From: an uncultured Gemmatimonadota bacterium
Lineage (GTDB): Bacteria; Gemmatimonadota; Gemmatimonadetes; Gemmatimonadales; Gemmatimonadaceae
NCBI GenBank assembly: GCA_946478895.1
Contig: CAMLDY010000045.1
Location: forward strand, 1-19,386
Direction of reading: 5' to 3'
Length of the DNA stretch: 19,386 nucleotides
In this document: positions 1-19,163 of the stretch, in pieces
Layout: each line of letters starts with the position of its first letter
Position numbering within the stretch: position 1 is the stretch's first letter
The notes under the pieces: model-generated
Told to the model about the DNA's origin: nothing
The model's input: the letters and a program-made list of their open reading frames with translations, nothing else
The model's database searches: none
Program-made: the position numbers and the translations under genes

Positions 1-92
1 GGGAATGCTTTCTGCATTGCTGACCCGCGACTCGGTGGAGAAATCGCTTCCTGAATGGATAGCGAAATGCTGAGTGCACATAACGCACCTCG
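1..92 (+). other. Left edge; possible 3' tail of an upstream gene
   Basis: Positions 2-73 read through in one + frame to a TGA stop and would encode about 23 residues ending LPEWIAKC. The other two + frames close sooner. This could be the end of a gene lying mostly outside the window, but 23 codons are too few to identify it, and it may equally be noncoding leader of the operon that starts at 93. I see no convincing promoter or terminator hairpin in these 92 bases. Confidence 0.2.
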
Positions 93-1979
93 ATGATAAC
101 AACGGGTCCGATGCCGAAAACCAGCGTGCCACGCTTTGCTCAGCGACGGTCCGCGCTTCTTCTGTCGATTGCCGCCGGCCTGATTGGATGCTCGGGGCAA
201 AAGCCGGCTGACGAAACCGCTCAAACTCCAACGATTGCCGCGACGCCGGCCGCGGGACGAAGCAACGGCGGGGCGAGTGCGATCGAGCCCGAGGATGGCC
301 AGTGGGTTCGCCCGGCGAAAACCTACTCGAGCACCCGGTTCAGCGGACTGAACGAGATAACCGCCGACAACGTAAAGAACCTGCACCTCGCCTGGACCTT
401 CGGGACGGGAATTCTGCGGGGGCATGAAGCGGCGCCGCTCGTCGTCAACAACACGATGTACATCGTGACGCCGTTCCCGAACATCCTCTACGCGCTCGAT
501 CTCACCAAACCGGGCGCGCCGATGAAATGGATTTACAGGCCCGGCCCGATTGCGGCCTCGCAGGGCGTCGCCTGTTGCGACGTGGTGAATCGCGGCGCGT
601 CGTACGCGGACGGGAAGATCGTGTACAACACCCTCGACAATCGCACCGTCGCCGTCGACGCCAACACCGGGAAGGAGCTCTGGAAAACCAAAGTCGGGGA
701 GATCAACCTCGGCGAAAGCATGACGATGGCGCCGCTGATCGTGAAGAACCACGTGTTCGTGGGAAACAGCGGTGGAGAGTTTGGAATTCGCGGCTGGCTG
801 ACGGCGCTCGATCTAAATAGCGGAAAGATCGTCTGGCGCGCTTACCACACGGGCCCTGATTCGGCCGTTCTGATTGGCAGCAGGTTCAAGCCGTTCTACG
901 CGGACGACCGCAAGCCGAATCTCGGCGTGAACTCCTGGCCGGGTGACACGTGGAAGATTGGCGGCGGGGGAGTGTGGGGCTGGATCTCGTATGATCCGCA
1001 GCTGAATCTGATCTATTACGGCACCTCGAATCCCGGTCCGTGGAATCCGGAGCAGCGACCAGGCGACAACAAGTGGACGGCGACGATCTTCGCTCGCGAT
1101 CCCGAGACCGGCGAAGCGGTGTGGGCATATCAAATGAGCCCGCACGACATGCACGATTACGACGGTGTGAACGAGAATCTGCTTCTCGATCTGCCCATCA
1201 ACGGCGCCACCCGCAAAGTCCTGGTTCACCCCGACCGCAACGGCTACGTGTACGTGATCGACCGGCAGACGGGGGAGGTGTTGTCCGCCGATCCGTTCGG
1301 CTACATCAACACGTCGACGGGTGTCGATCTCAAGACCGGACGCATCAAGTATGTGCAGGAAAAGGAGCCGAGGATCGGCCAGGTCGTGCGTAATTCCTGT
1401 CCGGCGTCACCGGGCGCAAAGGATTGGCAGCCGTCGTCGTTCTCGCCCGTCACCGGCCTCATCTACATCCCGCATCAGAATCTCTGTCAGGATGTCGAAG
1501 CGGTGGAAGCCAGCTACATCGCGGGAACGCCGTTCGTCGGCATGAACGTGAAGATGTTCGCGGGACCGGGTGGCAATCGCGGATTCTTCGATGCCTGGGA
1601 TCCTGTCGCTCGGAAAATCGTGTGGCGCATCCCCGAACACTTTCCAGTGTGGAGCGGCGCGCTAGCCACGGCAGGGAACGTAGTGTTCTACGGAACGATG
1701 GAGGGTTGGTTCAAGGCCGTCGATGCGCGCACGGGTCAGGAGCTGTGGAAGTTCAAGACCGGCTCCGGAATCATCGGACAGCCGATCAGCTATCGCGGGC
1801 CCGACGGCAAGCAGTACATCGCCGTGCTTTCGGGCGTCGGGGGATGGTCGGGGGCGATCGTCGCCGGCGGAATCGATCCGCGCGATTCGTCGGCAGCGTT
1901 GGGATTCGTGAACGCGATGACGGATCTACCCGGCGCGACCAACAAGGGCGGAATGCTCTATGTCTTCGCGCTTCCTTAG
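93..1979 (+). CDS. PQQ-dependent methanol/alcohol dehydrogenase, XoxF-like, predicted lipoprotein
   Basis: Periplasmic quinoprotein that oxidises methanol or another primary alcohol and passes electrons to cytochrome c. The 628-aa product has the eight-bladed propeller pattern, with repeated D-x3-G-x3-W motifs (for example ALDLNSGKIVW). Active-site features are visible: the vicinal disulfide C161-C162, metal ligands E229 (GGEFGIRG) and N313 (TSNPGPWN), catalytic D355, and R382 (HPDRNG). D357 lies two residues after the catalytic Asp (HDYDGVN), the position that binds the lanthanide in XoxF enzymes and is not acidic in calcium MxaF. The N-terminus is positively charged and hydrophobic and ends in lipobox L30-I-G-C33, followed by a low-complexity linker to about residue 65, so the enzyme is probably lipid-anchored, which is unusual for XoxF. 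An alternative ATG lies at 111; neither start has a strong ribosome binding site. First gene of the operon. Substrate is inferred from family; ethanol or another alcohol is possible. Confidence 0.92.
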   Translation: MITTGPMPKTSVPRFAQRRSALLLSIAAGLIGCSGQKPADETAQTPTIAATPAAGRSNGGASAIEPEDGQWVRPAKTYSSTRFSGLNEITADNVKNLHLAWTFGTGILRGHEAAPLVVNNTMYIVTPFPNILYALDLTKPGAPMKWIYRPGPIAASQGVACCDVVNRGASYADGKIVYNTLDNRTVAVDANTGKELWKTKVGEINLGESMTMAPLIVKNHVFVGNSGGEFGIRGWLTALDLNSGKIVWRAYHTGPDSAVLIGSRFKPFYADDRKPNLGVNSWPGDTWKIGGGGVWGWISYDPQLNLIYYGTSNPGPWNPEQRPGDNKWTATIFARDPETGEAVWAYQMSPHDMHDYDGVNENLLLDLPINGATRKVLVHPDRNGYVYVIDRQTGEVLSADPFGYINTSTGVDLKTGRIKYVQEKEPRIGQVVRNSCPASPGAKDWQPSSFSPVTGLIYIPHQNLCQDVEAVEASYIAGTPFVGMNVKMFAGPGGNRGFFDAWDPVARKIVWRIPEHFPVWSGALATAGNVVFYGTMEGWFKAVDARTGQELWKFKTGSGIIGQPISYRGPDGKQYIAVLSGVGGWSGAIVAGGIDPRDSSAALGFVNAMTDLPGATNKGGMLYVFALP

Positions 1980-2790
1980 CCTGCTCGCCGCGGCCGCGGC
2001 CGTCGCGTGCGGACCGGCTCGGGCCGCTACCACGATGCGCGAGCTGCGTGTCTGCGCCGACCCCAACAACATGCCGTTCTCGAATCAGCAGCAGCAGGGC
2101 TTCGAGAACAGGATCGCCGAGCTCGTCGCGCGCGAGATGGACGCGAAGCTGAGTTACGTCTGGTACGCGCAGCGGCGCGGCTTTACGCGCAACACCATCA
2201 ATGCCGGGAAGTGCGACGTCTACATCGGTGTTCCGACGAGCCTCGACCGACTCAGCGCCACCATCCCGTACTATCGCTCGACCTACGTCTTCGCGACGCG
2301 GCAGGATCGAAACATCAAGCTGGCTTCGTTCGACGATCCAGCGCTTCGGAAACTCACTATTGGCGTGCAGCTTATCGGCGACGATTTCACGAACACTCCG
2401 CCGGCCCACGCACTGACGGCTCGCAACATCGTCCGGAACGTGAAGGGCTACAGTGTTTACGCCGACTATCGTGAGCCGAATCCGCCGGCGCGCATTATCG
2501 ACGCTGTGGCGAAAGGAGACATCGACGTCGCGATCGCGTGGGGCCCGCTGGCCGGCTACTTCGCCAAACACGAGCCCGTAGCGATAGACATCACGCCGGT
2601 CTCGCCGCAGATCGATCTCCCGTTCCTGCCGATGGTATTCGACATCTCGATGGGGGTGCGGCGCGGCAAGGACTCGTTGCGCGACCAGCTCAACGCGATC
2701 ATCACGCGGCGAAAGCCGGAGATCGATGCCATCCTCGACAGCTACGGCGTGCCGCGGCTCGCCGTCGGCCAGGTGGGGAGCCAGTCATGA
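1960..2790 (+). CDS. XoxJ/MxaJ-like quinoprotein-dehydrogenase-associated substrate-binding protein
   Basis: Periplasmic protein of the solute-binding fold that accompanies methanol dehydrogenases; XoxJ/MxaJ is thought to help mature or activate the enzyme rather than serve an ABC transporter. The 276-aa product begins with a Sec signal (hydrophobic residues about 6-17, likely cleavage after ARA at 22). C17 in VAC could instead be a weak lipobox cysteine. The mature start LRVCADPNNMPFSN, then GFENRIAELVARE, QRRGFTRNT, and PYYRSTYVF, are hallmarks of this family (recognised from memory). No permease or ATPase genes are nearby, which fits the accessory role. The ATG overlaps the dehydrogenase stop by 20 nt and follows AAGGG at 1944-1948. 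The start is clear because the signal peptide begins there. Confidence 0.9.
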   Translation: MSSRFLSLLAAAAAVACGPARAATTMRELRVCADPNNMPFSNQQQQGFENRIAELVAREMDAKLSYVWYAQRRGFTRNTINAGKCDVYIGVPTSLDRLSATIPYYRSTYVFATRQDRNIKLASFDDPALRKLTIGVQLIGDDFTNTPPAHALTARNIVRNVKGYSVYADYREPNPPARIIDAVAKGDIDVAIAWGPLAGYFAKHEPVAIDITPVSPQIDLPFLPMVFDISMGVRRGKDSLRDQLNAIITRRKPEIDAILDSYGVPRLAVGQVGSQS

Positions 2791-3365
2791 CGCGAATTAT
2801 GCCGGCTTGGTCGAGCGCGGTGCGCGGCGGAGCCCTCGCCGTCATTGCATTGGCCGTGATGGTGTCGTGCAAGCGCGAGCAGCGGCGTTTTCGCGAGACA
2901 CCGCCGTCGGCAACTGCGGCAAACCTGGTGACGATGAGCGAGCTGCAGCCCGGCCCGGCGGTGATCGAAGCGGAGCTACGCAACCCGTATGAAGACAACG
3001 CCTACGCGGTGTCGGAGGGCAAGCGGCTGTTCGACCAAATGAACTGTTCCGGCTGTCACTCGCACGGCGGGGGTGGGATCGGTCCTCCGCTCACCGACAA
3101 CGAATGGATCTACGGCAGCGAGCCGCAGAACATCTTTTCGACGATCATCGAGGGACGGCCCAACGGCATGCCGGCGTTCCGCGGCAAGCTGCCCAACTAT
3201 CAGATCTGGCAGCTGGTCGGTTACGTCCGGGCGCTTGGCGGAATTCAGGGCAAGGCCGTGCGCACGACGCGCGACGACCACATGATGTACAAGGAGTCCG
3301 AACAGGCGCGCGACAAGGGCCATCCTTCTCCTACCTTCGTCCCGCCCACGTCCGTCAAGCAATGA
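2787..3365 (+). CDS. Lipoprotein cytochrome c, probable electron acceptor of the dehydrogenase
   Basis: Monoheme c-type cytochrome of 192 aa, expected to take electrons from the PQQ enzyme and pass them to the oxidase encoded next. Heme motif C87-S-G-C90-H91, followed by GGGGIGPPL; likely axial methionine M128 in NGMPAFRG. The N-terminus has a hydrophobic stretch (about 12-26) ending in V26-S27-C28, an acceptable lipobox, so it is probably membrane-anchored. A tail of about 40 residues after the heme domain is charged and unassigned. The reading frame is open further upstream (from 2538) inside the xoxJ-like gene, but the ATG at 2787 is preferred: it overlaps the upstream TGA as ATGA, has GGGGAG at 2775-2780, and places the signal sequence at the N-terminus. 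It occupies the position of XoxG/MxaG in known clusters; orthology to XoxG is not established. Confidence 0.88.
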   Translation: MTRIMPAWSSAVRGGALAVIALAVMVSCKREQRRFRETPPSATAANLVTMSELQPGPAVIEAELRNPYEDNAYAVSEGKRLFDQMNCSGCHSHGGGGIGPPLTDNEWIYGSEPQNIFSTIIEGRPNGMPAFRGKLPNYQIWQLVGYVRALGGIQGKAVRTTRDDHMMYKESEQARDKGHPSPTFVPPTSVKQ

Positions 3366-4408
3366 TGCCGGCGCGTCCGCGCGTGCCAACCCCCTATGCC
3401 TCGGTGCTGTCTGGGTGCATCGTCGCGCTCGCCGCCGGTTGCTCAGGCTGGCAGTCGGCGCTCGATCCCAAGGGCCCGCGCGCCGATGCGGTGGCGAAGC
3501 TGCACTGGAGCCTCGTCACCGTCGCCACCGTCGTCTACGTCATCGTCATCAGCGCGTTGATCTACGCGCTGTGGCGCGGCTATCATCGCACTGTACCCGA
3601 CCAGGCGCACGTTCACCAGGAGACGCCGGAGCAGGCCGACACCATGAAGCGCGGCGTCGTCATCGCCGTCGGTCTGACGGTCGTCGTCATGCTCGCTTTC
3701 GTTTTCACGAGCGTCTCGGTCGGCAGCACGGTCGCCCGCGTCGATGGCAACGAGCCGCTCCGCATCGACGTCGTGGGTCACCAGTGGTGGTGGGAAGTGA
3801 AGTACCCCGATGCCGACCCGCACAACAACTTCGAGACCGCCAACGAGATTCACGTCCCGGTTGGACGACCGGTGCTCATCAAGATGACGGCGGCGGACGT
3901 CATCCACAGTTTCTGGGCGCCGAACATCGGCGGAAAAAAGGATCTCATACCAGGCCACGAGACAGTCACCTGGTTCCGCGCCGACTCGGCGGGGGTGTAC
4001 CGCGGGCAATGCGCCGAGTTCTGTGGCCACCAGCACGCCAACATGGCGTTCTTCATCGTCGCCGAGCCGCGACTCGAGTTCGAGAGCTGGCTGCAGAAGC
4101 AGCGCGGTGAAGCGCCGCAGCCGGCTGACTCCCTGACGCAGGCAGGCCAGCAAGTCTTTCTGAGCGGGCCGTGCGTGATGTGTCACACCATCAGTGGCAC
4201 CCCCGCCGCCGCGACGGTGGGGCCGAACCTCACCCACCTCGCCAGCCGCCGGACCATCGCGGCGGGGACTCTGCCGAACAATACCGGTAACCTCGCCGGC
4301 TGGATTCTCGATCCACAGAGCATCAAGCCCGGTGTCAAGATGCCTCCCAGCGAGCTCGATCCCCAGTCGTTGCGCGCACTGCTCGCGTATCTGGAGAGCC
4401 TCAAATGA
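3362..4408 (+). CDS. coxB: Cytochrome c oxidase subunit II with fused cytochrome c domain (caa3 type)
   Basis: Electron-entry subunit of a caa3-type heme-copper oxidase; 348 aa. In order: signal with lipobox A25-G26-C27, transmembrane helices at about 48-71 and 97-120, the cupredoxin domain with the aromatic GHQWWWE segment (139-145), and the binuclear CuA site H182, C217, E219, C221, H225, M228 (CAEFCGHQHANM). A C-terminal cytochrome c domain follows, with C271-V-M-C274-H275 and likely axial M327 (KMPPSE). The fused heme lets the oxidase accept electrons without soluble cytochrome c, and fits the lipoprotein cytochrome just upstream. The start is the first of two adjacent ATGs (3362, 3365), overlapping the previous stop as ATGA; no clear ribosome binding site is seen, so translational coupling is likely. 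The frame is open upstream to 3104, but that part is a shadow of the cytochrome gene. Confidence 0.95.
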   Translation: MMPARPRVPTPYASVLSGCIVALAAGCSGWQSALDPKGPRADAVAKLHWSLVTVATVVYVIVISALIYALWRGYHRTVPDQAHVHQETPEQADTMKRGVVIAVGLTVVVMLAFVFTSVSVGSTVARVDGNEPLRIDVVGHQWWWEVKYPDADPHNNFETANEIHVPVGRPVLIKMTAADVIHSFWAPNIGGKKDLIPGHETVTWFRADSAGVYRGQCAEFCGHQHANMAFFIVAEPRLEFESWLQKQRGEAPQPADSLTQAGQQVFLSGPCVMCHTISGTPAAATVGPNLTHLASRRTIAAGTLPNNTGNLAGWILDPQSIKPGVKMPPSELDPQSLRALLAYLESLK

Positions 4409-6366
4409 CGGCGTCAGCTCCGCTGCCCGCAGTCCCCGATCCCGACTTCCGGCGTGATCTGATCAGCCCGCGCGACGAGGAGGAAATGCGCGCCAAGCTG
4501 TCGGCGACGTGGAAGGAGAAGTCCGGCTTCTACGGCTGGCTGACATCCACCAACCACAAGTCGATCGCGAAGCGGTACCTCGTCACCGCGATCATCTTCT
4601 TCATTCTCGGTGGACTGGAAGCCGGCATGATGCGGCTCCAGCTGTCACGACCGGAGAATCGCTTCATCGGACCGGATCTGTACAACCAGATCTTCACCAT
4701 GCACGGCAGTACCATGATGTTCCTGTTCGCGGTGCCGGTGATGGAAGCGGTCGGGCTGTACCTCGTGCCCCTGATGATCGGCACGCGGAACGTCGCCTTC
4801 CCGCGACTGAACGCGCTCGGCTACTGGATGTATTTGTTCGGCGGGGTGCTGCTCTACGTCGCGTTCTTCATGAACACCGGTCCCGACGCCGGGTGGTTCG
4901 CCTACGTTCCGCTTGCCGGACCCCAATATTCGCCCGGCAAGCGGGTGGACATCTGGGCGCAGATGATCACCTTCACCGAGGTCGCCGCCCTGATCGGCGC
5001 GGTGGAGATAGTCACGACGATCTTCAAGCAGCGTGCTCCGGGAATGTCGCTCAATCGGATGCCGCTGTTCGTCTGGGCGGAGCTGATCATGTCGTTCATG
5101 ATCATCTTCGCGCTGCCGGCGATCGTCGTGTCGAGCACCATGCTCGCGGCGGACCGCCTCGTCGATACGCACTTCTTCAATCCCGCGGAAGGCGGCGACG
5201 CGATTCTCTGGCAGCACCTGTTCTGGTTCTTCGGTCACCCCGAGGTCTACATCATCTTCATTCCCGCTCTGGGAATGGTGTCGTCGGTGGTGGAGGCTTT
5301 CACGCAGCGACGGATCTTCGGCTACCCCGCGATGATCCTGTCGATGGTGAGCACGGCGTTCCTCGGCTTCGGTCTCTGGGTGCACCACATGTTCGCGACG
5401 CCGTTGCCGCAGCTCGGCCAAAGCTTTTTCACCGCAGCGAGCTCAGCGATCTCGATTCCATCCGGCGTCCAGATATTCTGCTGGATCGCGACGATCTGGG
5501 GCGGGCGGCCGCGATTCTCGACGGCATTCAAGTTCATCATCGGGTTTTTCTTTCTGTTCATCATCGGCGGCATGACCGGCGTGATGATCGCGTCGATTCC
5601 GTACGATCTGCAGGTTCACGACACCTTCTTCATCGTCGCGCACTTTCACTACGTGCTGATCGGTGGGGCGCTGTTTCCGCTGTGGGCGGGATTCTATTAC
5701 TGGTTCCCGAAGCTCAGTGGCCGAATGTTGAGCGAGCGGGCGGGGAACTGGAATTTCTGGCTCTTCTTCATCGGCATGAACATCACGTTCTTCCCGATGC
5801 ACATTCTCGGGTTGATGGGAATGCCCCGGCGCGTCTACACGTATCTGCCCGAGATGGGTTGGGGGCCGTTGAATTCGCTGGCAAGCTTCGGTGCGGTGTT
5901 CATCGTCGCGAGCGTGTGCGTGTTCATCGGCAACGTCTGGTACGCTTTGCGACGTGGCGTTCCGGCAGGCGACAATCCGTGGAACGCACCGACGCTGGAG
6001 TGGGCGACGAGCTCGCCGCCGCCCAGCTACAACCACCTCTACATCCCGGTGGTGGAGGGCCGCGATCCGATCTGGGATGCGGCGCCCGGCGAGCTGGCGG
6101 TCGTCACCGGACTTCGTACGGACCGGCACGAGGGGCTGGTGACGAGCATCATGGATGCGATTCCCGAGCGCCGCTACGAGTTCAAGAAAGAGACGATCCT
6201 GCCATTTCTCCTCGCGGTGTTCGGGGGCGGGACGATCGTCATCGCCATTTTCAGCCCGTGGGGCGTGACGGTCGGCGCGATAACGTCTTTCATCATTCTC
6301 GCCGGATGGTTCTGGCCGACGATCTCGCCGGACCATGACACGCCGGTGGCGCGGGAGCCATTGTGA
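4405..6366 (+). CDS. ctaD: Cytochrome c oxidase subunit I, variant proton channels
   Basis: Catalytic heme-copper subunit that reduces O2 to water; 653 aa with about 12 core membrane helices, plus a hydrophobic pair near 608-645. Metal and heme ligands are all present: H100 (TMHGS), CuB H278 with cross-link Y282 and E280 (GHPEVY), H327-H328, and H413 and H415 (AHFHY). Conserved MPRR follows. Compared with Paracoccus subunit I (from memory), D-channel D124 is N129 (TRNVAFPR), D-channel N113 is L118, and K-channel K354 is Q356 (PSGVQIFCW), while E280 and N136 are kept. It therefore belongs to a divergent A-type subfamily, perhaps related to alternative CoxN-like oxidases. It overlaps subunit II by ATGA and has GGAG at 4393-4396. 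Its function as an oxidase is secure; proton pumping is uncertain. Confidence 0.96.
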   Translation: MTASAPLPAVPDPDFRRDLISPRDEEEMRAKLSATWKEKSGFYGWLTSTNHKSIAKRYLVTAIIFFILGGLEAGMMRLQLSRPENRFIGPDLYNQIFTMHGSTMMFLFAVPVMEAVGLYLVPLMIGTRNVAFPRLNALGYWMYLFGGVLLYVAFFMNTGPDAGWFAYVPLAGPQYSPGKRVDIWAQMITFTEVAALIGAVEIVTTIFKQRAPGMSLNRMPLFVWAELIMSFMIIFALPAIVVSSTMLAADRLVDTHFFNPAEGGDAILWQHLFWFFGHPEVYIIFIPALGMVSSVVEAFTQRRIFGYPAMILSMVSTAFLGFGLWVHHMFATPLPQLGQSFFTAASSAISIPSGVQIFCWIATIWGGRPRFSTAFKFIIGFFFLFIIGGMTGVMIASIPYDLQVHDTFFIVAHFHYVLIGGALFPLWAGFYYWFPKLSGRMLSERAGNWNFWLFFIGMNITFFPMHILGLMGMPRRVYTYLPEMGWGPLNSLASFGAVFIVASVCVFIGNVWYALRRGVPAGDNPWNAPTLEWATSSPPPSYNHLYIPVVEGRDPIWDAAPGELAVVTGLRTDRHEGLVTSIMDAIPERRYEFKKETILPFLLAVFGGGTIVIAIFSPWGVTVGAITSFIILAGWFWPTISPDHDTPVAREPL

Positions 6367-6971
6367 GACGCCGCCCCGTCATCGACGTCGCCGTCCTCGA
6401 CGACCACTCGTTCAGCCACCACGCCCCCATCTGGTGGGGCAACCTGCTGATGATCCTGATCGAGGGCGCGGCATTCGCGCTGCTCGTCGCCAGCTACTAC
6501 TACATCCGCCGGAACTTCGACACCTGGCCGCCGCCGCGAACTCTGCTTCCGGAGCTCGGGGTCTCGTCGGCAAATGTGGCGCTCCAGCTCGTGAGTCTGC
6601 TTCCAATGTGGTACGCGGCGAAGCTGGCGTTCGCGCACGAGCCGCCGGCGCGGATCGGCAAATGGCTGCTGGTCGTGGTCGCGTGCGGCGTCGGGGCGAT
6701 CATCCTGCGCGGCTTCGAGTTCGCGGGACTCCATACAAGGTACGACTCCAATGCCTATGGATCGATCACCTGGATGATCCTGTCGGTACACCTCGCGCAC
6801 CTGATCGCGGGCAGTCTGGAAACGCTCCTCATCGCGCTGGTGATGCTGATCGGGCCCGTCGAGAAGAAGCACTACACCGATACGACGGTGATGGCGGCGT
6901 ACTGGTACTTCGTGGTGTACTCATGGGTCGCGCTCTGGCTCGTGGTATTCGTCTCGGTGAGGTTCATATGA
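6363..6971 (+). CDS. ctaE: Cytochrome c oxidase subunit III (short form)
   Basis: Membrane subunit III of the heme-copper oxidase, 202 aa, with about five transmembrane helices, as in bacterial short forms lacking the first two helices. Family features include WWGNLLMILIEGAAF near 24-38, the conserved membrane glutamate E119 in RGFEF, SVHLAHLIAG (141-150) and YWYFVVYSWVALW (180-192). In the last motif the usual YWHFVD has Tyr and Val instead of His and Asp, a further sign that this oxidase diverges from the standard aa3 type. Translation starts at a GTG that overlaps the subunit I stop; GGGAG at 6353-6357 supports it. The subunit stabilises subunit I and is thought to aid sustained proton uptake through the D channel. 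Confidence 0.9.
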   Translation: MRRRPVIDVAVLDDHSFSHHAPIWWGNLLMILIEGAAFALLVASYYYIRRNFDTWPPPRTLLPELGVSSANVALQLVSLLPMWYAAKLAFAHEPPARIGKWLLVVVACGVGAIILRGFEFAGLHTRYDSNAYGSITWMILSVHLAHLIAGSLETLLIALVMLIGPVEKKHYTDTTVMAAYWYFVVYSWVALWLVVFVSVRFI

Positions 6972-7363
6972 CCGAAAGCGTTGCTCAGGCAGAGCGGCAG
7001 CGGCATGAAGTCGCGCGGACCGGAAATTCGCTCGACCTCTGGTTCGGGATGGTCGGCGGCCCGATGTCGGGGATGCTGATGGTCTGGGTCAACTATCCCC
7101 TCGTCGACCGCGCGTGTGTGAGCGGCAACCGGCTATGGCTGCACGGCTCGTCGCTCCTGTTCCTTCTGATCACGATCGCGGCTGGAATCTCGGCCTGGCG
7201 ATTCTACAAACGCGTCGGCGATTTCCCGTTGGTCGAGGGCGGGGTAATGCCGCGCAGCAGGTTCATGGCGCTCGTCGGGATGTTCACTGCCACGCTCGCG
7301 CTGATCGAGATCACGATGCAGTGGATCCCGATTTTCTTCCTCGGATCATGCATCGGCACCTGA
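6968..7363 (+). CDS. Small membrane protein of the oxidase operon, function unknown
   Basis: A 131-aa integral membrane protein that I do not recognise by name. After a polar N-terminus of about 25 residues there are three or four hydrophobic segments: about 26-42, 58-77, and 96-127 (possibly two). Two cysteines fall in or near periplasmic-side loops (C49 in DRACVSGN and one near the C-terminus in GSCIGT). Its position between subunit III and the CtaG fusion, and its ATGA overlap with subunit III plus GAGG at 6959-6962, make it a real gene co-translated with the oxidase. It could be a small accessory subunit filling the place of subunit IV, which is otherwise missing, or a biogenesis factor. 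Neither role can be shown from the sequence. Confidence 0.8.
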   Translation: MTESVAQAERQRHEVARTGNSLDLWFGMVGGPMSGMLMVWVNYPLVDRACVSGNRLWLHGSSLLFLLITIAAGISAWRFYKRVGDFPLVEGGVMPRSRFMALVGMFTATLALIEITMQWIPIFFLGSCIGT

Positions 7364-8637
7364 GCGCCTGGGCAGGCACAGCAGGAGTGGCGCTGCTTCC
7401 GGAATCCGCGGCCGCGCATCCCGTTGAGGCCCTCGCCCCTGCGGCTCTATGGTCAACCTGGTCGTGGGAGCCCGCAGTGGTGATCATCCTAGCGGCGACT
7501 GCCGCGCTCTACGCAATCGGGCTGCGCCGGCTGTGGTCAAAGTCGATTGGCACGGGGATTCGCGTATGGGAAGCGACGGCATTCGCGGGCGGCTGGCTTG
7601 CCGCGGCGCTCGCACTCGTCTCACCGCTCCACGCACTAGGCGGATCGCTGTTTTCGGCGCACATGGCGCAGCACGAGGTTCTGATCGCAGTCAGCGCGCC
7701 GCTGTTGGTGCTCGGCCGGCCGCTGATCCCGTTCCTCTGGGCGCTGCCACCCCATTGGCGAACGGGCATTGGCAGCGCGACCAAAGCCCCGGTGGTGAGC
7801 GCGCCATGGTCTGTGCTAACGCGCCCGTCGGTCGCGTTCGCACTCCACGCGATTGCGCTCTGGGTGTGGCATTTGCCGGGTCCGTATCAGGCGACCATCC
7901 ACAGCGAAATGATGCACAGCCTTCAGCATCTGAGTTTCATCTCGACCGCGCTGCTGTTCTGGTGGACGGTTTTCGGAGCGAGATACTCGATGCTCGGCTA
8001 CGGTGGCGCGGTCTTCTACCTGTTTGCTACGGCGCTCCAGACCGGAGCGCTCGGCGCGCTGCTCACCTTTGCCCCGGGACTTTGGTATCCGGCCTACGCG
8101 ACCACGGCGCCCGTCTGGGGATTGAGTCCGCTCGAAGACCAGCAGCTCGGTGGAATCATCATGTGGATTCCAGGGAGCATTCCGTACGTGATCGCGGGGC
8201 TGGTGTTGTTCGCCCGCTGGCTCAAGGAATCCGAGACGCGCGCTGTGCGTCACTACGCCTCGGTGATGAGCGCTCGCACGCTGGTTATTGTGATTTCCGT
8301 CGTAGCGCTCTCATCGTGCGATCGCGCATCCGGCGACGACAGATTTCAGATCACCAACGCAGATCCCGGGCGTGGCCGCGATGCAATCCGTCGCTACGGC
8401 TGCGGATCCTGCCACACCATCCCTGGTGTCGCAGGGGCGCGTGGAATGGTAGGTCCGCCGCTGGGCCAGGTGTCGCAGCGAGTATTCATCGCGGGGGTGC
8501 TGACCAATCAGCCCGACAACATGATTCGATGGATCGAGAATCCGCCGGGTATCGACGCAAAGACGGCAATGCCGAACATGGGCGTCACGGCGCGCGATGC
8601 TCGCGACATCGCTTCCTACCTCTACACGCTCAGGTAA
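7348..8637 (+). CDS. ctaG: CtaG-type oxidase assembly factor fused to a cytochrome c domain
   Basis: 429-aa fusion. Residues about 1-295 are a caa3_CtaG-type multi-helix membrane protein, with around seven helices after a signal-like start ending AAAH. Histidine-rich motifs typical of the family are seen (SAHMAQHE 103-110, LWVWHLPGPY 171-180, HSEMMHSLQHLS 185-196); CtaG proteins are needed for caa3 oxidase assembly, probably for copper delivery. Residues 307-324 (M307 to LSSC324) look exactly like a lipoprotein signal, and residues 340-429 are a class I cytochrome c domain with C352-G-S-C355-H356 and candidate axial M408 or M411. There is no stop between the parts. A separate 123-aa lipoprotein could start at ATG 8266, but no ribosome binding site precedes it. 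The start at 7348 overlaps the previous gene by 16 nt; later starts would cut the first helices. Confidence 0.88.
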   Translation: MHRHLSAWAGTAGVALLPESAAAHPVEALAPAALWSTWSWEPAVVIILAATAALYAIGLRRLWSKSIGTGIRVWEATAFAGGWLAAALALVSPLHALGGSLFSAHMAQHEVLIAVSAPLLVLGRPLIPFLWALPPHWRTGIGSATKAPVVSAPWSVLTRPSVAFALHAIALWVWHLPGPYQATIHSEMMHSLQHLSFISTALLFWWTVFGARYSMLGYGGAVFYLFATALQTGALGALLTFAPGLWYPAYATTAPVWGLSPLEDQQLGGIIMWIPGSIPYVIAGLVLFARWLKESETRAVRHYASVMSARTLVIVISVVALSSCDRASGDDRFQITNADPGRGRDAIRRYGCGSCHTIPGVAGARGMVGPPLGQVSQRVFIAGVLTNQPDNMIRWIENPPGIDAKTAMPNMGVTARDARDIASYLYTLR

Positions 8638-8643
8638 CGAGCG

Positions 8644-9525
8644 CTACTCGGTCGTGGCGTGTTCCTCGGCCACCTGCGCGTAGTTGAACAGTGCAACGAG
8701 GAGCACCCCGCCGACTGCGTTCCCGAGCAGGGAGGGAACGATGAAGCTTCCGATCATCTCTCCCCAGCCAGCTGCTCCAGTAGCCGCCCGATAGAACGCT
8801 TCGACGCTGCCGGCGATGGAATGCCGGAAATGGAACGCGGAGATCGGCGCCGTGGCAACCCAGATCATGAAGATTTGCGCGGTCGTTTCGATGGTCGATG
8901 CAAGCAGCCACGCGAGCAGTGCGATCAGCCAGCCGCCGAAGATTGCCTTGTAGAACACCATGCCGAAGCCGCCCTCGGTGCTCTGTCGAGCGACTTCCTG
9001 CATTGAGGGATGCAGTGGAGCGTCGATGATGTTCGTTGCGCCGAGGATCCAGCCGAATACGAGCGCGCCGATAAGATTGCCGACGATCAGCAGTCCCCAC
9101 ATCCGCAACAATTTCCTGAGTGTCGTTCCATCGCGCTTGTGCAGAAGCGGGATCACCGGCTCGAGGGTGTTCTCGGTGAACAGCTCGCTGCGGCCCATGA
9201 TCACGAACATGAATCCAATCGGGTACGCGAGGGATGCGAGCGGGTGTTTGTACGGCTCGGGCGCGTAGTGGCTGACGAACGCCGAGGCGAGGAAACTGAA
9301 GCCAATCAGCATTCCGGCGGCGAGCGACGAAAACAGCAAAGAGCTCGCGGGCCGCTCGAGCTCCTCGACGGCCGGTCCGCGGATGTTCTCGTGGATCTCC
9401 AGCGCGCTGAGACGGGTTCCGCTCTCAGGCCGGGGAACCGTCTTGCGTCCGAACGGATTGGTGGGCTTTGCCTCTTCGGGCTCTTCCCACTCCGACTTCT
9501 TCGATTCCGGCTTGTCGTGTTCCAC
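8644..9525 (-). CDS. Formate/nitrite transporter (FNT) family channel, YfdC-like
   Basis: Pentameric FNT channels move small monovalent anions such as formate or nitrite across the inner membrane. The 293-aa product has a hydrophilic N-terminus of about 55 residues rich in Glu, Lys and Pro, then six predicted helices. Family marks include GRSELFTENTL (111-121), the central-pore histidine in RHSIAG (H235, matching FocA EHSIAN), and LLGNAVGGVLLVALFNY near the C-terminus. The long charged N-terminus and the ELFTENT motif place it with the YfdC-like branch, whose substrate is not settled. Translation begins at a GTG; no other start exists between it and the in-frame stop upstream, and no strong ribosome binding site is seen. 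It ends 6 nt from the convergent ctaG fusion. Formate would suit a methanol-oxidising neighbour, but that is inference. Confidence 0.88.
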   Translation of the reverse strand: MEHDKPESKKSEWEEPEEAKPTNPFGRKTVPRPESGTRLSALEIHENIRGPAVEELERPASSLLFSSLAAGMLIGFSFLASAFVSHYAPEPYKHPLASLAYPIGFMFVIMGRSELFTENTLEPVIPLLHKRDGTTLRKLLRMWGLLIVGNLIGALVFGWILGATNIIDAPLHPSMQEVARQSTEGGFGMVFYKAIFGGWLIALLAWLLASTIETTAQIFMIWVATAPISAFHFRHSIAGSVEAFYRAATGAAGWGEMIGSFIVPSLLGNAVGGVLLVALFNYAQVAEEHATTE

Positions 9526-9554
9526 GACCGGCGCAATCGGAAGTTCCGTGCCCG

Positions 9555-9576
9555 GCGCTTGCGTTGGCGCAAGCGC
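9555..9576 (-). terminator. Perfect 9-bp stem-loop after the receptor gene
   Basis: GCGCTTGCG at 9555-9563 and its exact complement CGCAAGCGC at 9568-9576 flank a 4-nt loop. The hairpin lies 1 nt past the stop of the TonB-dependent receptor and 29 nt before the FNT start on the - strand. There is no run of T after it in either direction, so it is not a classical intrinsic terminator. It could still slow polymerase, protect the 3' end of the receptor message, or separate expression of the two genes. Confidence 0.35.
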
Positions 9577-9577
9577 G

Positions 9578-11729: not shown

Positions 11730-14279
11730 TCACCGCTTGCCCGCCGACTTCGCGAAGCGATAGCCGCGGATGCTGGTTTGTTTCCACTGCTCCATGATCT
11801 TGCGCACGATGTCGACGATGAAATCCGCCGACTGCGGGTCGACGTCGATGGTGGCGATCGTATCAACGATCTGCTGGCAGAGCAGATCCACGTCGCGCGC
11901 GATCTCGCCCTCCGTCCACCCGAGCCTGTACCGCTGCGCACCGTGCAGCTCGGCGAGAAGCCTCTGGATCTCGGCGCCATCGCGGAGCAGATCGCTGGCG
12001 CGTCCCCTGGTTTCGGCGAGCAGCTGCGCGGCGCGGATGATCTCGGTGACGACGGTGTCGGCGTGATCGCGAATGTGCGCTTCATTCACCGCGGACAAAT
12101 CCGGAACTCCGTCGTCGTCCCGCACCCGCTGCACGTACGTCCCGGCGATGAGATCGATGCGGTTGAGAAGAGCCTGCGCAAGATGTCTCACTCCCACCAC
12201 ATCCGGCGTTGCCTCCGCTGCTGGTGGGTGGTCGGGCTGTGGCGCGGGCCGTTCTTCCGATGCCCCGCCGCGCAGCCAGAGCGTGAACGTCGAGCCGCCG
12301 CCGACGGTGCTTTGCACCGTGATGTCGCCGCCCATCAGCCGTGCGAGCTGACGACTGATGGCAAGGCCCAATCCGGTTCCGCCTTCCGAGCGAGTATAAC
12401 CGGAGTCTCCCTGCACGAACGGCTCGAAGATTCTCGTCAGCTGCTCGGGAGGAATGCCGATGCCGTTGTCGGCGACGCGAATGAACGTCCATGATCCCTC
12501 GCCGACCAATCGTGCACCGGGATCGGGATGATCGGCGGATCCGCACTCGAGCGTGACGGCGCCGCCCGGATTGGTGAACTTGACGGCATTCGACAGAAGG
12601 TTGACGAGGATCTGACGCACCCGATCGGGATCGCCCATGTAGGACGTCCCTTCCGCACCATCGCATTCCTCGGGATAGTCGATGCCGCGCGCGACTGCCT
12701 GTGGCCCGATCAGCGCGATGGTGGCGTGAATCACGTCACTCACGTACGCCGTTTCGCGCGACACACTGACGCGGCCGGCTTCGATCTTCGAAAGATCGAG
12801 GATGTCGTTTACGAGTCCCAGTAGGTGCACGGCGCTGGAGCGCAGGCGCTGAAGGTGATCGTGCTGTGGCGGGCTTACTGCGCCGAGCACACCCATGTCG
12901 ATCAGCTGAGTGTAGCCGAGTATTGCGTTCAGGGGCGTGCGAAACTCATGACTCATCGTGGCGAGAAATTCACTCTTGCCACGATTTGCCATTTCCGCTT
13001 CTTCCTGCGCGCGCTCGGCGATCTCTCTCGCTTCGACAGCGCCCTCGAGGGCAAGGTCGCGTTGGCGTTCGGCGTGCTTGCGCGCGGTGATGTCGGAGTG
13101 GGTGCCCACCCACTCCTCGATATTTCCGGTCGCATCGAATACCGGCACCGCCCGGGCGAGCATCTCGAGGTACTCGCCGTTGCGGGTCCTGACGCGGTGC
13201 TCCACTTCGTAGATCGCGCCGGCGGACAGCGCTCTGCGCCACGCCGTGATCGTCTTGTCGCGATCTTCAGGGTGGACGGCATCGAGCCATCCGTTGCCCC
13301 GCATCTCCTCGAAAGACTGGCCGGTGAGCTGATGCCAGTCGTCTTCCTCGACTAGCATCGTACCGTTCCCGTCCATTTTCCAGACGGCAGCGGTGGTCGA
13401 TTCGATCAGCGAGCGAAAACGCTTTTCGCTTTCCTGGAGCATCCGCTGAGCGCGCTGCTTGTCGGAGATGTCGGCGAAGTAGACGGATAACCCTTCTGGC
13501 GAGGGGTATGCATGGACCTCGAACCACGAGTCGAGCGGTGGATAGTATTCGGCGAATGCGACGACCGATTGTGATTCGACGGCGCGCCGGTATTGTTCGG
13601 CGAACGCCGAGGTGGCGGCATCGGGAAACTCGTCCCAGACGATTTTTCCGACGAGATCCTCGCGGCGGCGCTGCAGGATCAGGGCTGCCTTCTCGTTCAC
13701 GTAGGTGAAGCGCCAGTTTTCGTCGAGGGCAAAGAAAGCGTCGCTGATTCGCTCGAGAACATCGGAGAGTCGCTTCTGGCCCTCGCGAGCTTCGGCTGCC
13801 GCCGCTTGCGCCCGGGCCAGTTCCGCGGCAGCGTCGCGGATTCTCTCCCTGCTCCGGTAGAGGTCGCAGAAGACGCTGACCTTCGATCTGACCACTTCCG
13901 GACTGAGCGGCTTGAAGAGGTAGTCGACCGCTCCGCTCTCATAACCCTGGAGGATCAGGCGCTCGTCGGGGTTGCCGGCGGTGAGGAAGATCAGCGGGAT
14001 GCCGGAAGTCTTTTTTCGCTGCTTGATCCTCCGCGCCGTCTCGAGGCCATCCATGCCCGGCATCGCGACATCGAGGAGCACCAGAGCGAAATCAGAGTCG
14101 AGGAGGTGGCCGAGCGCTTCTTCGCCCGAGCTCGCCCGCACAAGGTTTTCACCGAGGGGCTCGAGAATCGCCTCAATGGCGAGGAGATTTTCCGGCCTGT
14201 CGTCCACTATCAGGACGTTCACGGGCGCGGATTCGCCGGCGAGCACAGTATCGCGGGCGAGTGGCGAGGTCGACTGCAT
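11730..14279 (-). CDS. Hybrid sensor kinase: receiver-PAS-PAS-histidine kinase with C-terminal RsbRD-like domain
   Basis: Cytoplasmic signalling protein of 849 aa with no membrane helices. Order: receiver domain 20-140 (acidic D26/D27, phospho-acceptor D70, T100, K123); coiled-coil linker 145-172; PAS about 170-275; PAS_3-type about 283-402 (AVHPEDR); coiled coil to 435; HisKA with H444 (SHEFRTP); ATPase domain with N564, DNGIGIP 604-610, FEPF 618-621, GGTGLGLA 633-640. After a Pro-rich linker (675-695), residues about 697-840 form a helical domain whose LHGAQRYRLGWTEGEI pattern resembles RsbRD_N, seen in RsbR-like and some kinase proteins and normally N-terminal. Having a receiver first and no output domain suggests a phosphorelay or a kinase controlled by another kinase. 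The ATG at 14279 has no strong ribosome binding site. Signal sensed is unknown. Confidence 0.9.
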   Translation of the reverse strand: MQSTSPLARDTVLAGESAPVNVLIVDDRPENLLAIEAILEPLGENLVRASSGEEALGHLLDSDFALVLLDVAMPGMDGLETARRIKQRKKTSGIPLIFLTAGNPDERLILQGYESGAVDYLFKPLSPEVVRSKVSVFCDLYRSRERIRDAAAELARAQAAAAEAREGQKRLSDVLERISDAFFALDENWRFTYVNEKAALILQRRREDLVGKIVWDEFPDAATSAFAEQYRRAVESQSVVAFAEYYPPLDSWFEVHAYPSPEGLSVYFADISDKQRAQRMLQESEKRFRSLIESTTAAVWKMDGNGTMLVEEDDWHQLTGQSFEEMRGNGWLDAVHPEDRDKTITAWRRALSAGAIYEVEHRVRTRNGEYLEMLARAVPVFDATGNIEEWVGTHSDITARKHAERQRDLALEGAVEAREIAERAQEEAEMANRGKSEFLATMSHEFRTPLNAILGYTQLIDMGVLGAVSPPQHDHLQRLRSSAVHLLGLVNDILDLSKIEAGRVSVSRETAYVSDVIHATIALIGPQAVARGIDYPEECDGAEGTSYMGDPDRVRQILVNLLSNAVKFTNPGGAVTLECGSADHPDPGARLVGEGSWTFIRVADNGIGIPPEQLTRIFEPFVQGDSGYTRSEGGTGLGLAISRQLARLMGGDITVQSTVGGGSTFTLWLRGGASEERPAPQPDHPPAAEATPDVVGVRHLAQALLNRIDLIAGTYVQRVRDDDGVPDLSAVNEAHIRDHADTVVTEIIRAAQLLAETRGRASDLLRDGAEIQRLLAELHGAQRYRLGWTEGEIARDVDLLCQQIVDTIATIDVDPQSADFIVDIVRKIMEQWKQTSIRGYRFAKSAGKR

Positions 14280-14325: not shown

Positions 14326-17130
<2,805 letters not shown>

Positions 17131-17986: not shown

Positions 17987-18967
17987 TCAGCGTTTGTGGA
18001 AACGCGGCAGCTCCATCGGCGTCGCACGCCTGGCGGCGCGGGGAAGCGCGAGCGTAAACGTCGAGCCGACACCTTCCTCGCTCTCGAGAGTGATGTCGGC
18101 CCCCATGCCGCGCGCCAGGCCGCGACTGATCGGCAGGCCGAGCCCGGTGCCATCGGTGGTGCGGGTGAGACCGCGATCGAGCTGGACGAACGGCTCGAAT
18201 ACGGACTCCTGCTTGTCGACCGGGATTCCGACACCCGTGTCGGCGACGTGGATGGAGACGCTCTTTTCGCCGACCGTACACGCGACCCGGATGCGCCCGC
18301 CGGCGGGAGTGAACTTCACCGCGTTTGAGACCAGGTTGATCATGATCTGTCGCAGCTTGTCGGGATCGGTGCGCACGTAGACGTTGGCCGCAGGCATGTC
18401 GCAGCGGTACTCCAGGTCTTTCGCGCGCGCGAGCGGACTCACCACCGCGTCGAGATCGACGACGAGCGCGCGCACGGAGACCTCGATGATGTCGAACTTG
18501 ACCTCGGTTGCCTCGAGGCGGGTGAAGTTGAGGATGTCGTTGATGATGCCGAGGAGGTGTTCCTGGCTGCGCTTGATGCGGCCGAGGTCGGCGCGCTGGG
18601 CTTCGGTGAGGGGCCCGCGCAGCTCCATCTCCAGCAGATCGACGTAGCCGCCGATGGAATTGAGGGGGGTTCGGAGCTCGTGACTCATGACGGCGAGAAA
18701 TTCCGCCTTCGAGCGGTTGGCGGCGTCGGCGGCCGCCCAGGCTTTTCGCGCCTCGCTGATCGCGGCCCGCAATTCCTCATTAGTTAAGGCCAGCTCGTGC
18801 GCGAGCTCCCGGGCTTCGGTGGTCTGATGCTCGAGCTGTCGCGCCTGGGTCTGGAGGACGTTGTTGCTTTCCTCGAGTGCTGCCATGCGCGCGGCCGCGA
18901 CCTCGCGCTGTCTGGACATTCGGACAGCACGAATGACGGCGTTGACCTTTGGGAAGGTGAATGGCAT
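17987..18967 (-). CDS. Sensor histidine kinase with N-terminal coiled coil
   Basis: Soluble 326-aa histidine kinase without a recognisable sensor domain. Residues about 18-85 form a long coiled coil with heptad-like Leu/Ala spacing, the HisKA domain has H96 (SHELRTP), and the ATPase domain shows N215 (NLVSNAVKF), DTGVGIP 243-249, FEPF 257-260 and GTGLGLP 273-279. It lacks its own receiver domain and no cognate response regulator is adjacent, so it may act on the receivers of the two hybrid kinases downstream. I chose the ATG at 18967; the frame can be extended to a GTG at 19066, but the extra 33 residues are Arg/Ser-rich, look like translated intergenic DNA, and have no family match that I know. 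It is the promoter-proximal gene of the - strand group. Confidence 0.88.
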   Translation of the reverse strand: MPFTFPKVNAVIRAVRMSRQREVAAARMAALEESNNVLQTQARQLEHQTTEARELAHELALTNEELRAAISEARKAWAAADAANRSKAEFLAVMSHELRTPLNSIGGYVDLLEMELRGPLTEAQRADLGRIKRSQEHLLGIINDILNFTRLEATEVKFDIIEVSVRALVVDLDAVVSPLARAKDLEYRCDMPAANVYVRTDPDKLRQIMINLVSNAVKFTPAGGRIRVACTVGEKSVSIHVADTGVGIPVDKQESVFEPFVQLDRGLTRTTDGTGLGLPISRGLARGMGADITLESEEGVGSTFTLALPRAARRATPMELPRFHKR

Positions 18968-19163
18968 TTTCGCGCCCGCACTACGGGTTACTCTAGTGAC
19001 GTTTCGCCATAGCCTGCCGACACTCGAAGGCCGGTTTGGTGCGCGGGAGCGTACTAAAATCGGCACTCAACGCAGATTTGTGATGTGGCCGGACGGCGCG
19101 CGATGGAGAAAAACGGACGGTGCCTAAGGCCAACCTTCGCGTTTATCTTCAGGTCTCTAGGTC
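18968..19163. other. Divergent intergenic region
   Basis: These 196 bases separate the - strand kinase group from the + strand tRNA, so promoters for both directions should lie here. I could not pick out a -35/-10 pair good enough to report on either strand, and found no strong inverted repeat. Short open frames that cross it look like chance extensions. Confidence 0.5.

Follow-up and report, generated by a model that had tools for sequence, protein, structure and literature searches.

A XoxF-linked caa3-type oxidase operon of a Gemmatimonadota bacterium and the altered proton-channel residues of its clade

The window analysed here is the whole of a 19,386-nucleotide stretch from an uncultured Gemmatimonadota bacterium of the Gemmatimonadaceae (assembly GCA_946478895.1, contig CAMLDY010000045.1). 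Between positions 93 and 8637 it carries eight intact genes, all co-directional on the + strand and each overlapping the next (by 20, 4, 4, 4, 4, 4 and 16 bases, in gene order), as read from the open reading frames and from profile searches (Table 1). A first-pass annotation of this DNA had described a single array made of a pyrroloquinoline quinone (PQQ) dehydrogenase, its XoxJ partner, a cytochrome c, a caa3 oxidase with fused heme and a CtaG with another c heme; both layout and gene content hold, the latter mostly by profile scores above cut-off, and CxxCH motifs are found at residue 87 of the stand-alone cytochrome c, 271 of CoxB and 352 of CtaG. Here, I show that the oxidase has its metal and heme ligands in place, that its genes are linked to xoxF across phyla, and that it belongs to a clade in which the K-channel residues of both subunits are lost; in the branch that includes the window, most of the D-channel entrance is lost too and a helix IV Glu (Glu192) is gained. 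The operon promoter lies outside the window, as only 92 bases precede xoxF, and a scan of positions 1-9600 on both strands gave no excess over shuffled expectation of promoter-like sites (2 vs 1.5 expected) or of terminator-like sites (3 vs 5.6 expected).

Table 1. Genes of the operon, followed by other genes of the window (aa, amino acids).
Feature	Position	Strand	Basis
xoxF, lanthanide-type PQQ methanol dehydrogenase, 628 aa, probable lipoprotein (LIGC)	93..1979	+	TIGR03075; lipobox by eye
xoxJ, periplasmic binding-protein-like partner, 276 aa	1960..2790	+	TIGR03871
Lipoprotein cytochrome c at the XoxG position, 192 aa, one CxxCH	2787..3365	+	PF13442; lipobox by eye
coxB, subunit II, CuA domain and fused cytochrome c	3362..4408	+	PF00116 and PF00034
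coxA, subunit I, 653 aa, two-helix C-terminal tail	4405..6366	+	TIGR02891
coxC, short subunit III, 202 aa	6363..6971	+	Position; PF00510 below cut-off
131-aa membrane protein in the coxC/ctaG interval	6968..7363	+	Alignment with 34 related frames
ctaG, assembly factor with C-terminal cytochrome c, 429 aa	7348..8637	+	PF09678; CxxCH at residue 352
Formate/nitrite transporter, convergent with the operon	8644..9525	-	
TonB-dependent receptor, 701 aa	9578..11683	-	
Group of three neighbouring histidine kinases; two are multi-PAS kinases with a receiver domain	11730..14279, 14326..17130, 17987..19066	-	

The dehydrogenase scores 640.5 bits against TIGR03075 (cut-off 480.05), and its best match in the PDB is the methanol dehydrogenase 4mae (678.9 bits). 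At the positions of the lanthanide ligands of SolV XoxF, whose extra lanthanide-coordinating Asp is D301, the window XoxF has E229, N313, D355 and D357; vicinal cysteines stand at 161/162. Relatives were drawn from a scan of genome contigs, keeping the best 80 of 191 XoxF matches as the locus set; with 24 of these 80 titled Mesorhizobium, they are no set of independent loci. In the alignment of the window with the 80 loci, the E, N and D positions are invariant (81/81) and the second Asp is present in 80 of 81. Fold profile and extra Asp together place the protein, by prediction, among the XoxF lanthanide-dependent methanol dehydrogenases. Its closest relatives bearing organism names are metagenome-assembled genomes of Gemmatimonadaceae. 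A Methylocaldum genome holds three XoxF copies at 68-72% to that of the window and two more at 45-50%, multiple xoxF3 copies being reported for this genus in a passage of PMC12482762; these copies and the gene neighbourhood, which matches that of published XoxF3 clusters, make the protein a candidate XoxF3. A lipobox as a general XoxF trait was dropped, since the crude pattern used flagged 26 of the 80 loci with evident false positives, and it stands for the window only. The adjoining XoxJ is well above its cut-off (TIGR03871, 311.6 bits vs 212.15). The stand-alone cytochrome c falls far under that of TIGR03872 (MoxG/cL; 46.1 vs 147.8 bits) and, not qualifying as XoxG/cytochrome cL, is named cytochrome c only.

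It is rather unlikely that this dehydrogenase mainly oxidises some other alcohol or an aldehyde, or is rarely used at all. Its substrate is assigned by likeness, 4mae being a best PDB match only, and the conserved XoxJ partner and lanthanide-ligand positions speak for the usual function, to which a formate/nitrite transporter downstream would be suited if C1 compounds are oxidised. As to rare use, XoxF3 of Methylocella silvestris was barely expressed, at trace level, according to a passage of PMC9291206, though XoxF3 of Methylosinus increases with cerium according to one of PMC12482762.

Turning to the oxidase, CoxB exceeds the TIGR02866 cut-off (172.9 bits vs 147.7), with 2yev_B as best PDB match, and CoxA that of TIGR02891 (700.6 bits vs 670.75); the CoxA tail contains hydrophobic segments at 598-616 and 619-637. 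In the alignment, the heme, CuB and Mg ligands and the active-site cross-link Tyr are retained in 61/61 class I CoxA. A CuA subunit II with fused c heme, next to a subunit I (COX1) with all heme and CuB ligands, identifies a predicted caa3-type enzyme; a COX1 within 630-670 aa with two-helix C-terminal extension, and a PQQ dehydrogenase in the operon, would likewise assign the genes to cytochrome c oxidase (COX) operon type a-II. CoxC, at 20.3 bits, stays just under the Pfam COX3 cut-off of 23.8 (PF00510); it owes its name to its position and to models scoring below their cut-offs.

CtaG surpasses PF09678 (Caa3_CtaG; 206.4 bits vs 27.7) and falls short of the TIGR02737 equivalog (59 vs 279.35 bits). 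Its start is probably at 7348, giving 429 aa, on account of the common length among homologues (400-440 aa in 108 of 120 among the matches listed). The same fused length excludes, for this group, that the CtaG-cytochrome fusion is two misread genes; several relatives have two separate ctaG matches per locus, as if separate genes. Following coxC, a hydrophobic frame of 85-210 aa was found by rule in 67 loci, two of them artefacts, and none in L004, L069 and L079. Aligned with 34 frames of related loci, the 131-aa protein of the window shows two nearly invariant Cys, and its AlphaFold model is a helical bundle (predicted local distance difference test 88.8). A 'vesicle-mediated transport' likeness reported for this small-protein family in a passage of PMC10875860 may stem from generic helical-bundle matches, e.g. 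to syntaxin Habc.

Conserved adjacency of xoxF, xoxJ and coxB-coxA-coxC had been set beforehand as a test of the proposed chain, and the linkage recurs in several phyla. Where at least 8 kb of sequence extend beyond xoxF, coxB, coxA and coxC follow downstream on the same strand in 52 of 60 loci, the hosts including Gemmatimonadota, Acidobacteriota and alpha-, beta- and gammaproteobacteria; Azospirillum melinis, Mesorhizobium and Acidobacteriaceae KBS 96 are examples of cultured bacteria that carry the cluster. In five of the remaining eight (L033, L039, L075, L076, L080) the oxidase cluster is upstream or convergent, with coxB nevertheless downstream in L075, L076 and L080; no coxA was seen in L021, L068 and L078. 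At one locus (L151, 10056-13587) a tandem xoxF pair, at 59% and 67% to the window copy, stands ahead of one xoxJ-cox cluster.

The proton-channel residues set this oxidase apart. In HMMER alignments with solved chains, the window CoxA carries Asn129 for the D-channel Asp and Gln356 for the K-channel Lys. At Lys354/Thr351/Ser291/Tyr280 of the K-channel it reads Gln356, Ser353, Ser293 and Tyr282; at Asp124/Asn113/Asn131/Asn199/Ser134/Ser193/Glu278 it reads Asn, Leu, Asn, Glu, Gly, Ala and Glu, so that only N131 and E278 are retained. Type A heme-copper oxidases are identified by D- and K-channel residues (PMC3084760, in its Table 2); the window oxidase belongs to family A by sequence, yet fails the K- and D-channel residue lists of type A (A1). 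An artefact or pseudogene is out: the frames are intact, homologues were found, and the D/N and K/Q differences appear in MAFFT alignments as well as in those made with HMMER.

The same holds for relatives. Of 70 CoxA frames, 61 (60 loci, one split in two) form the XoxF-linked channel set, being on the + strand and at least 55% identical; among them, counting readable frames, 59/60 have lost D124, 60/60 N113 and 58/58 K354, while E278 is retained in 58/58. N113, N131 and N199 are each present in all 16 canonical comparison rows, which were preselected for D, K and E and are hence informative only at other positions; in a less circular grouping, that of the K- and E-bearing CoxA, D124, N113 and N199 are retained in 21/21.

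A tree of 146 CoxA (FastTree, LG+gamma), with the Gemmatimonadota set included, gives this a phylogenetic frame. The K-channel Lys is found in 29 sequences; all K-less CoxA fall into a single clade (local support 0.977), made up of the remaining 117 sequences, of which 116 could be read at this site and one has a gap. As the sequences were gathered via XoxF or by likeness to the window and include at least one duplicate pair (L183 is the contig of L038), 117/146 is no frequency in nature. Arg57 is found in 116/117 clade members and in 0/29 others. The clade splits into two exclusive and exhaustive branches, namely 93 sequences with Glu192 (support 0.991), including that of the window, and 24 with Trp/Phe280 (support 0.998). 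In the former, 88 members have Glu at position 280 and 5 have Asp. The latter retains D124 and N199 in 24/24; XoxF-linked loci in which HPWVY replaces HPEVY (Glu278 to Trp), the K-channel Lys is missing and the D-channel entrance is mostly intact are L033, L039, L072, L075, L076, L080, L129, L130 and L136, together with Gemmatimonadota loci.

In canonical oxidases, a Glu of subunit II, within the motif LExxWTxxP, opens the K-channel. The window CoxB is without this motif, whose absence is plain in the K-less set. The Glu is found in 25/25 CoxB partnering CoxA read as K-bearing, and among 116 other CoxB rows (2 gaps) only in L119 and L126, whose CoxA do carry the K-channel Lys, missed by the search pattern; the CoxA of L001, L020 and L160 do not cover the Lys site. 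The K-less CoxB region is hard to align, which makes the tally at the Glu site (mostly Val) approximate. Because the partner residues are gone in two subunits, the data argue for a K-route that would be truly lost.

What replaces these residues bears on energetics. It is quite possible, if somewhat short of an even chance, that the enzyme pumps at full stoichiometry via an equivalent path, with Glu192, Glu201 and their neighbours standing in for Asp124 and Lys354 and the energetics unchanged. Glu192 is universal in the clade outside the Trp/Phe280 branch (93/93) and occurs in 0/29 K-bearing CoxA, and Glu201 replaces N199 in 48/93. Four members (L169, L171, L174, L177) hold Glu192 and Glu201 with N113 and D124 still retained. 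An earlier origin of the new path would predict such members, and they would fit new acids preceding the loss of the old entrance. Glu201 is, on the other hand, not general, the N199 position being Ala in 25/93, and the K-route residues are gone from both subunits. Moreover, in model oxidases, mutations in the D- or K-channel leave the enzyme slow or decoupled, and N199/N207 changes decouple pumping.

The linkage was also approached from the oxidase. These samples count in centre genomes preselected for the cluster (G001 in Acidobacteriota, G002 in Alphaproteobacteria and G071 in Gemmatimonadota, where G070 was also known before), and the counts for the latter two groups are lower bounds, since scoring was confined to the top 4 or 5 candidates in each genome. 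In Acidobacteriota, CoxA at 60% or more is found in 2/60 genomes, both XoxF-linked (L007, L114). In Alphaproteobacteria, matches occur in at least 4 of 289 genomes; two adjoin XoxF, one (L127) another PQQ dehydrogenase at 49% to that of the window, and one (L128) none. In Gemmatimonadota, at least 45 matches occur in at least 34 of 249 genomes, with XoxF within 6 kb for 26/45, and some of the XoxF-less matches end at a contig edge. By hand count, where at least 6 kb of upstream sequence are available, 21 of 30 Gemmatimonadota clade oxidases (13/20 of Glu192 type, 8/10 of Trp/Phe280 type) lie no more than 6 kb from a PQQ dehydrogenase in one direction or the other, and 9/30 do not. Of these nine, L157 has a xoxJ-like gene and no dehydrogenase match; L162, L163 and L165 belong here too.

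A case in point for oxidases standing apart from XoxF concerns L162, where the neighbours of a clade oxidase are, by Pfam, a Rieske protein and a cytochrome b carrying a fused c heme, in place of a dehydrogenase; L163 and L165 resemble it by the N-termini of their neighbours, and all three oxidases have D124 changed to Glu and Glu278 to Asp. Likewise, the Mesorhizobium ciceri genome whose plasmid bears locus L053, with xoxF, has on a 6.26 Mb contig (L111, 6498-13041) a second class I oxidase cluster with no xoxF in 18 kb. Further oxidases are common in such genomes: matches to the COX1 family (PF00115), a few of them fragments below cut-off, number 3-9 each in ten cluster-bearing genomes and 3-7 in seven more. 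Because the same genomes hold several such matches, the cluster oxidase is an extra one, which fits a dedicated role without proving it. The 'private' respiratory module of the first-pass annotation is too strong a term, given these other oxidases and the 9/30 without a PQQ dehydrogenase nearby.

These data could also reflect a general caa3 oxidase that takes electrons from whichever periplasmic cytochrome c is at hand (e.g. from bc1), the adjacency of xoxF being due to co-regulation or hitch-hiking. Eight loci with no PQQ dehydrogenase in the stretch examined (L111, L154, L162, L163, L165, L167, L175, L182), the Rieske and cytochrome b genes of L162 and the further oxidases of the same genomes would all be in keeping with this; it is improbable nonetheless, for linkage in similar order recurs in Gemmatimonadota, Acidobacteriota and Proteobacteria, and a PQQ dehydrogenase lies near most Gemmatimonadota oxidases of either type.

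The reading preferred here, with a probability of roughly 0.7, is that the eight genes specify a periplasmic chain from alcohol to oxygen, of XoxF3/type a-II COX type, with rebuilt D-side proton entry and a differing pumping yield. In this chain, XoxF with PQQ and a lanthanide would oxidise an alcohol, methanol or one like it; the lipoprotein cytochrome c would carry the electrons to heme c and CuA of CoxB, and heme a, then heme a3-CuB of CoxA would reduce O2; CtaG with its c heme would serve copper delivery or assembly and may also carry electrons. Should the protons used in chemistry come in through a rebuilt route on the D side, the proton yield would differ from that of a canonical caa3 oxidase, being differently routed or, more probably, lower. 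Several points weigh against this reading. The trace expression in Methylocella makes it doubtful that the chain works in each and every host; D124 is retained in 11/93 of the Glu192 branch; and some clade oxidases have a Rieske and a cytochrome b gene as neighbours (L162), or no dehydrogenase at all in the stretch examined (L111, L154). Because these members have the same changes, channel loss as a XoxF-specific trait is rejected in part: the changes are a property of the clade and no proof of coupling to XoxF.

A bolder proposal is tentative, the odds being against it. The K-free clade would represent a distinct proton-channel architecture with the K-channel gone from both subunits and rebuilt D-side delivery, one branch having a new helix IV Glu, presumably near Glu278, and a mostly lost mouth, the other an intact mouth and Trp/Phe at Glu278; it would be mainly a dedicated low-coupling oxidase for lanthanide-dependent alcohol oxidation, and the sole coupling site. 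If methanol electrons enter at cytochrome c, the oxidase alone fixes the energy yield of the chain. An A-family oxidase that, in several phyla, has shed K-channel residues from two subunits and much of the D-channel mouth, with its catalytic ligands intact, would offer a natural enzyme in which to separate the channel needed for chemistry from that for pumping, and yield estimates for soil lanthanide-dependent methylotrophs would shift.

Beyond the operon, the convergent formate/nitrite transporter, with relatives in seven of the compared loci (L002, L152, L146, L151, L052, L014, L013), is perhaps for formate from C1 oxidation. The TonB-dependent receptor has no relative at E (expectation value) 1e-8 among the compared loci, which leaves a lanthanide-receptor role unsupported.

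To place the operon among known systems, K-channel loss as such is not new. In a passage of PMC3084760, only 4 of 1216 sequences are without the channel residues, all most like type B, and K-channel variants are treated in a passage of PMC8239418, where one scenario has seven losses in family A. No description of channel loss in XoxF-linked oxidases was found among the matches listed for open-licence PMC text, chiefly titles and abstract openings. The operon type, in turn, is no unreported one, and the earlier view that xox clusters depend on oxidases encoded elsewhere in the genome is wrong for this kind: both xoxF3-cox clusters (PMC10875860) and type a-II operons bearing PQQ dehydrogenases (PMC4013037) have been published. 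Keltjens 2014, as cited in PMC10875860, has cox and ctaG in xoxF3 operons, and a figure legend of PMC11845868 lists cox and CtaG, apparently among methanol-dehydrogenase gene clusters.

The closest likeness is to the XoxF3 clusters of PMC10875860, which in the relevant passages comprise CoxI-III, CtaG, XoxG and XoxJ, with a protein of ~110-130 aa between CoxIII and CtaG. The gene set is thus the same, small protein included. The arrangement is given for XoxF3, including all 12 XoxF-bearing Acidobacteria genomes, with clusters conserved across Acidobacteria and Gemmatimonadetes; the gene set is given for Acidobacteria and, in part, for both Gemmatimonadetes and Verrucomicrobia. Those passages differ from the present account in not mentioning proton channels. 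COX operon type a-II, defined in a passage of PMC4013037 by a COX1-COX4 fusion, shares the PQQ dehydrogenase often found in the operon, the COX1 of 630-670 aa with fused COX4-like tail and a five-helix subunit III; it was described for proteobacteria, and 'proton' is absent from the main text. SolV XoxF (4mae) is the closest solved structure of the dehydrogenase and has equal residues at the aligned metal-ligand positions, yet its 678.9 bits compare with >1000 for close relatives among the matches listed. Thermus thermophilus caa3 (2yev) shares with the window a CoxB with fused cytochrome c, and is the best PDB match of the window CoxB, but has the LEVVWTLIP motif in place of which the window CoxB shows none.

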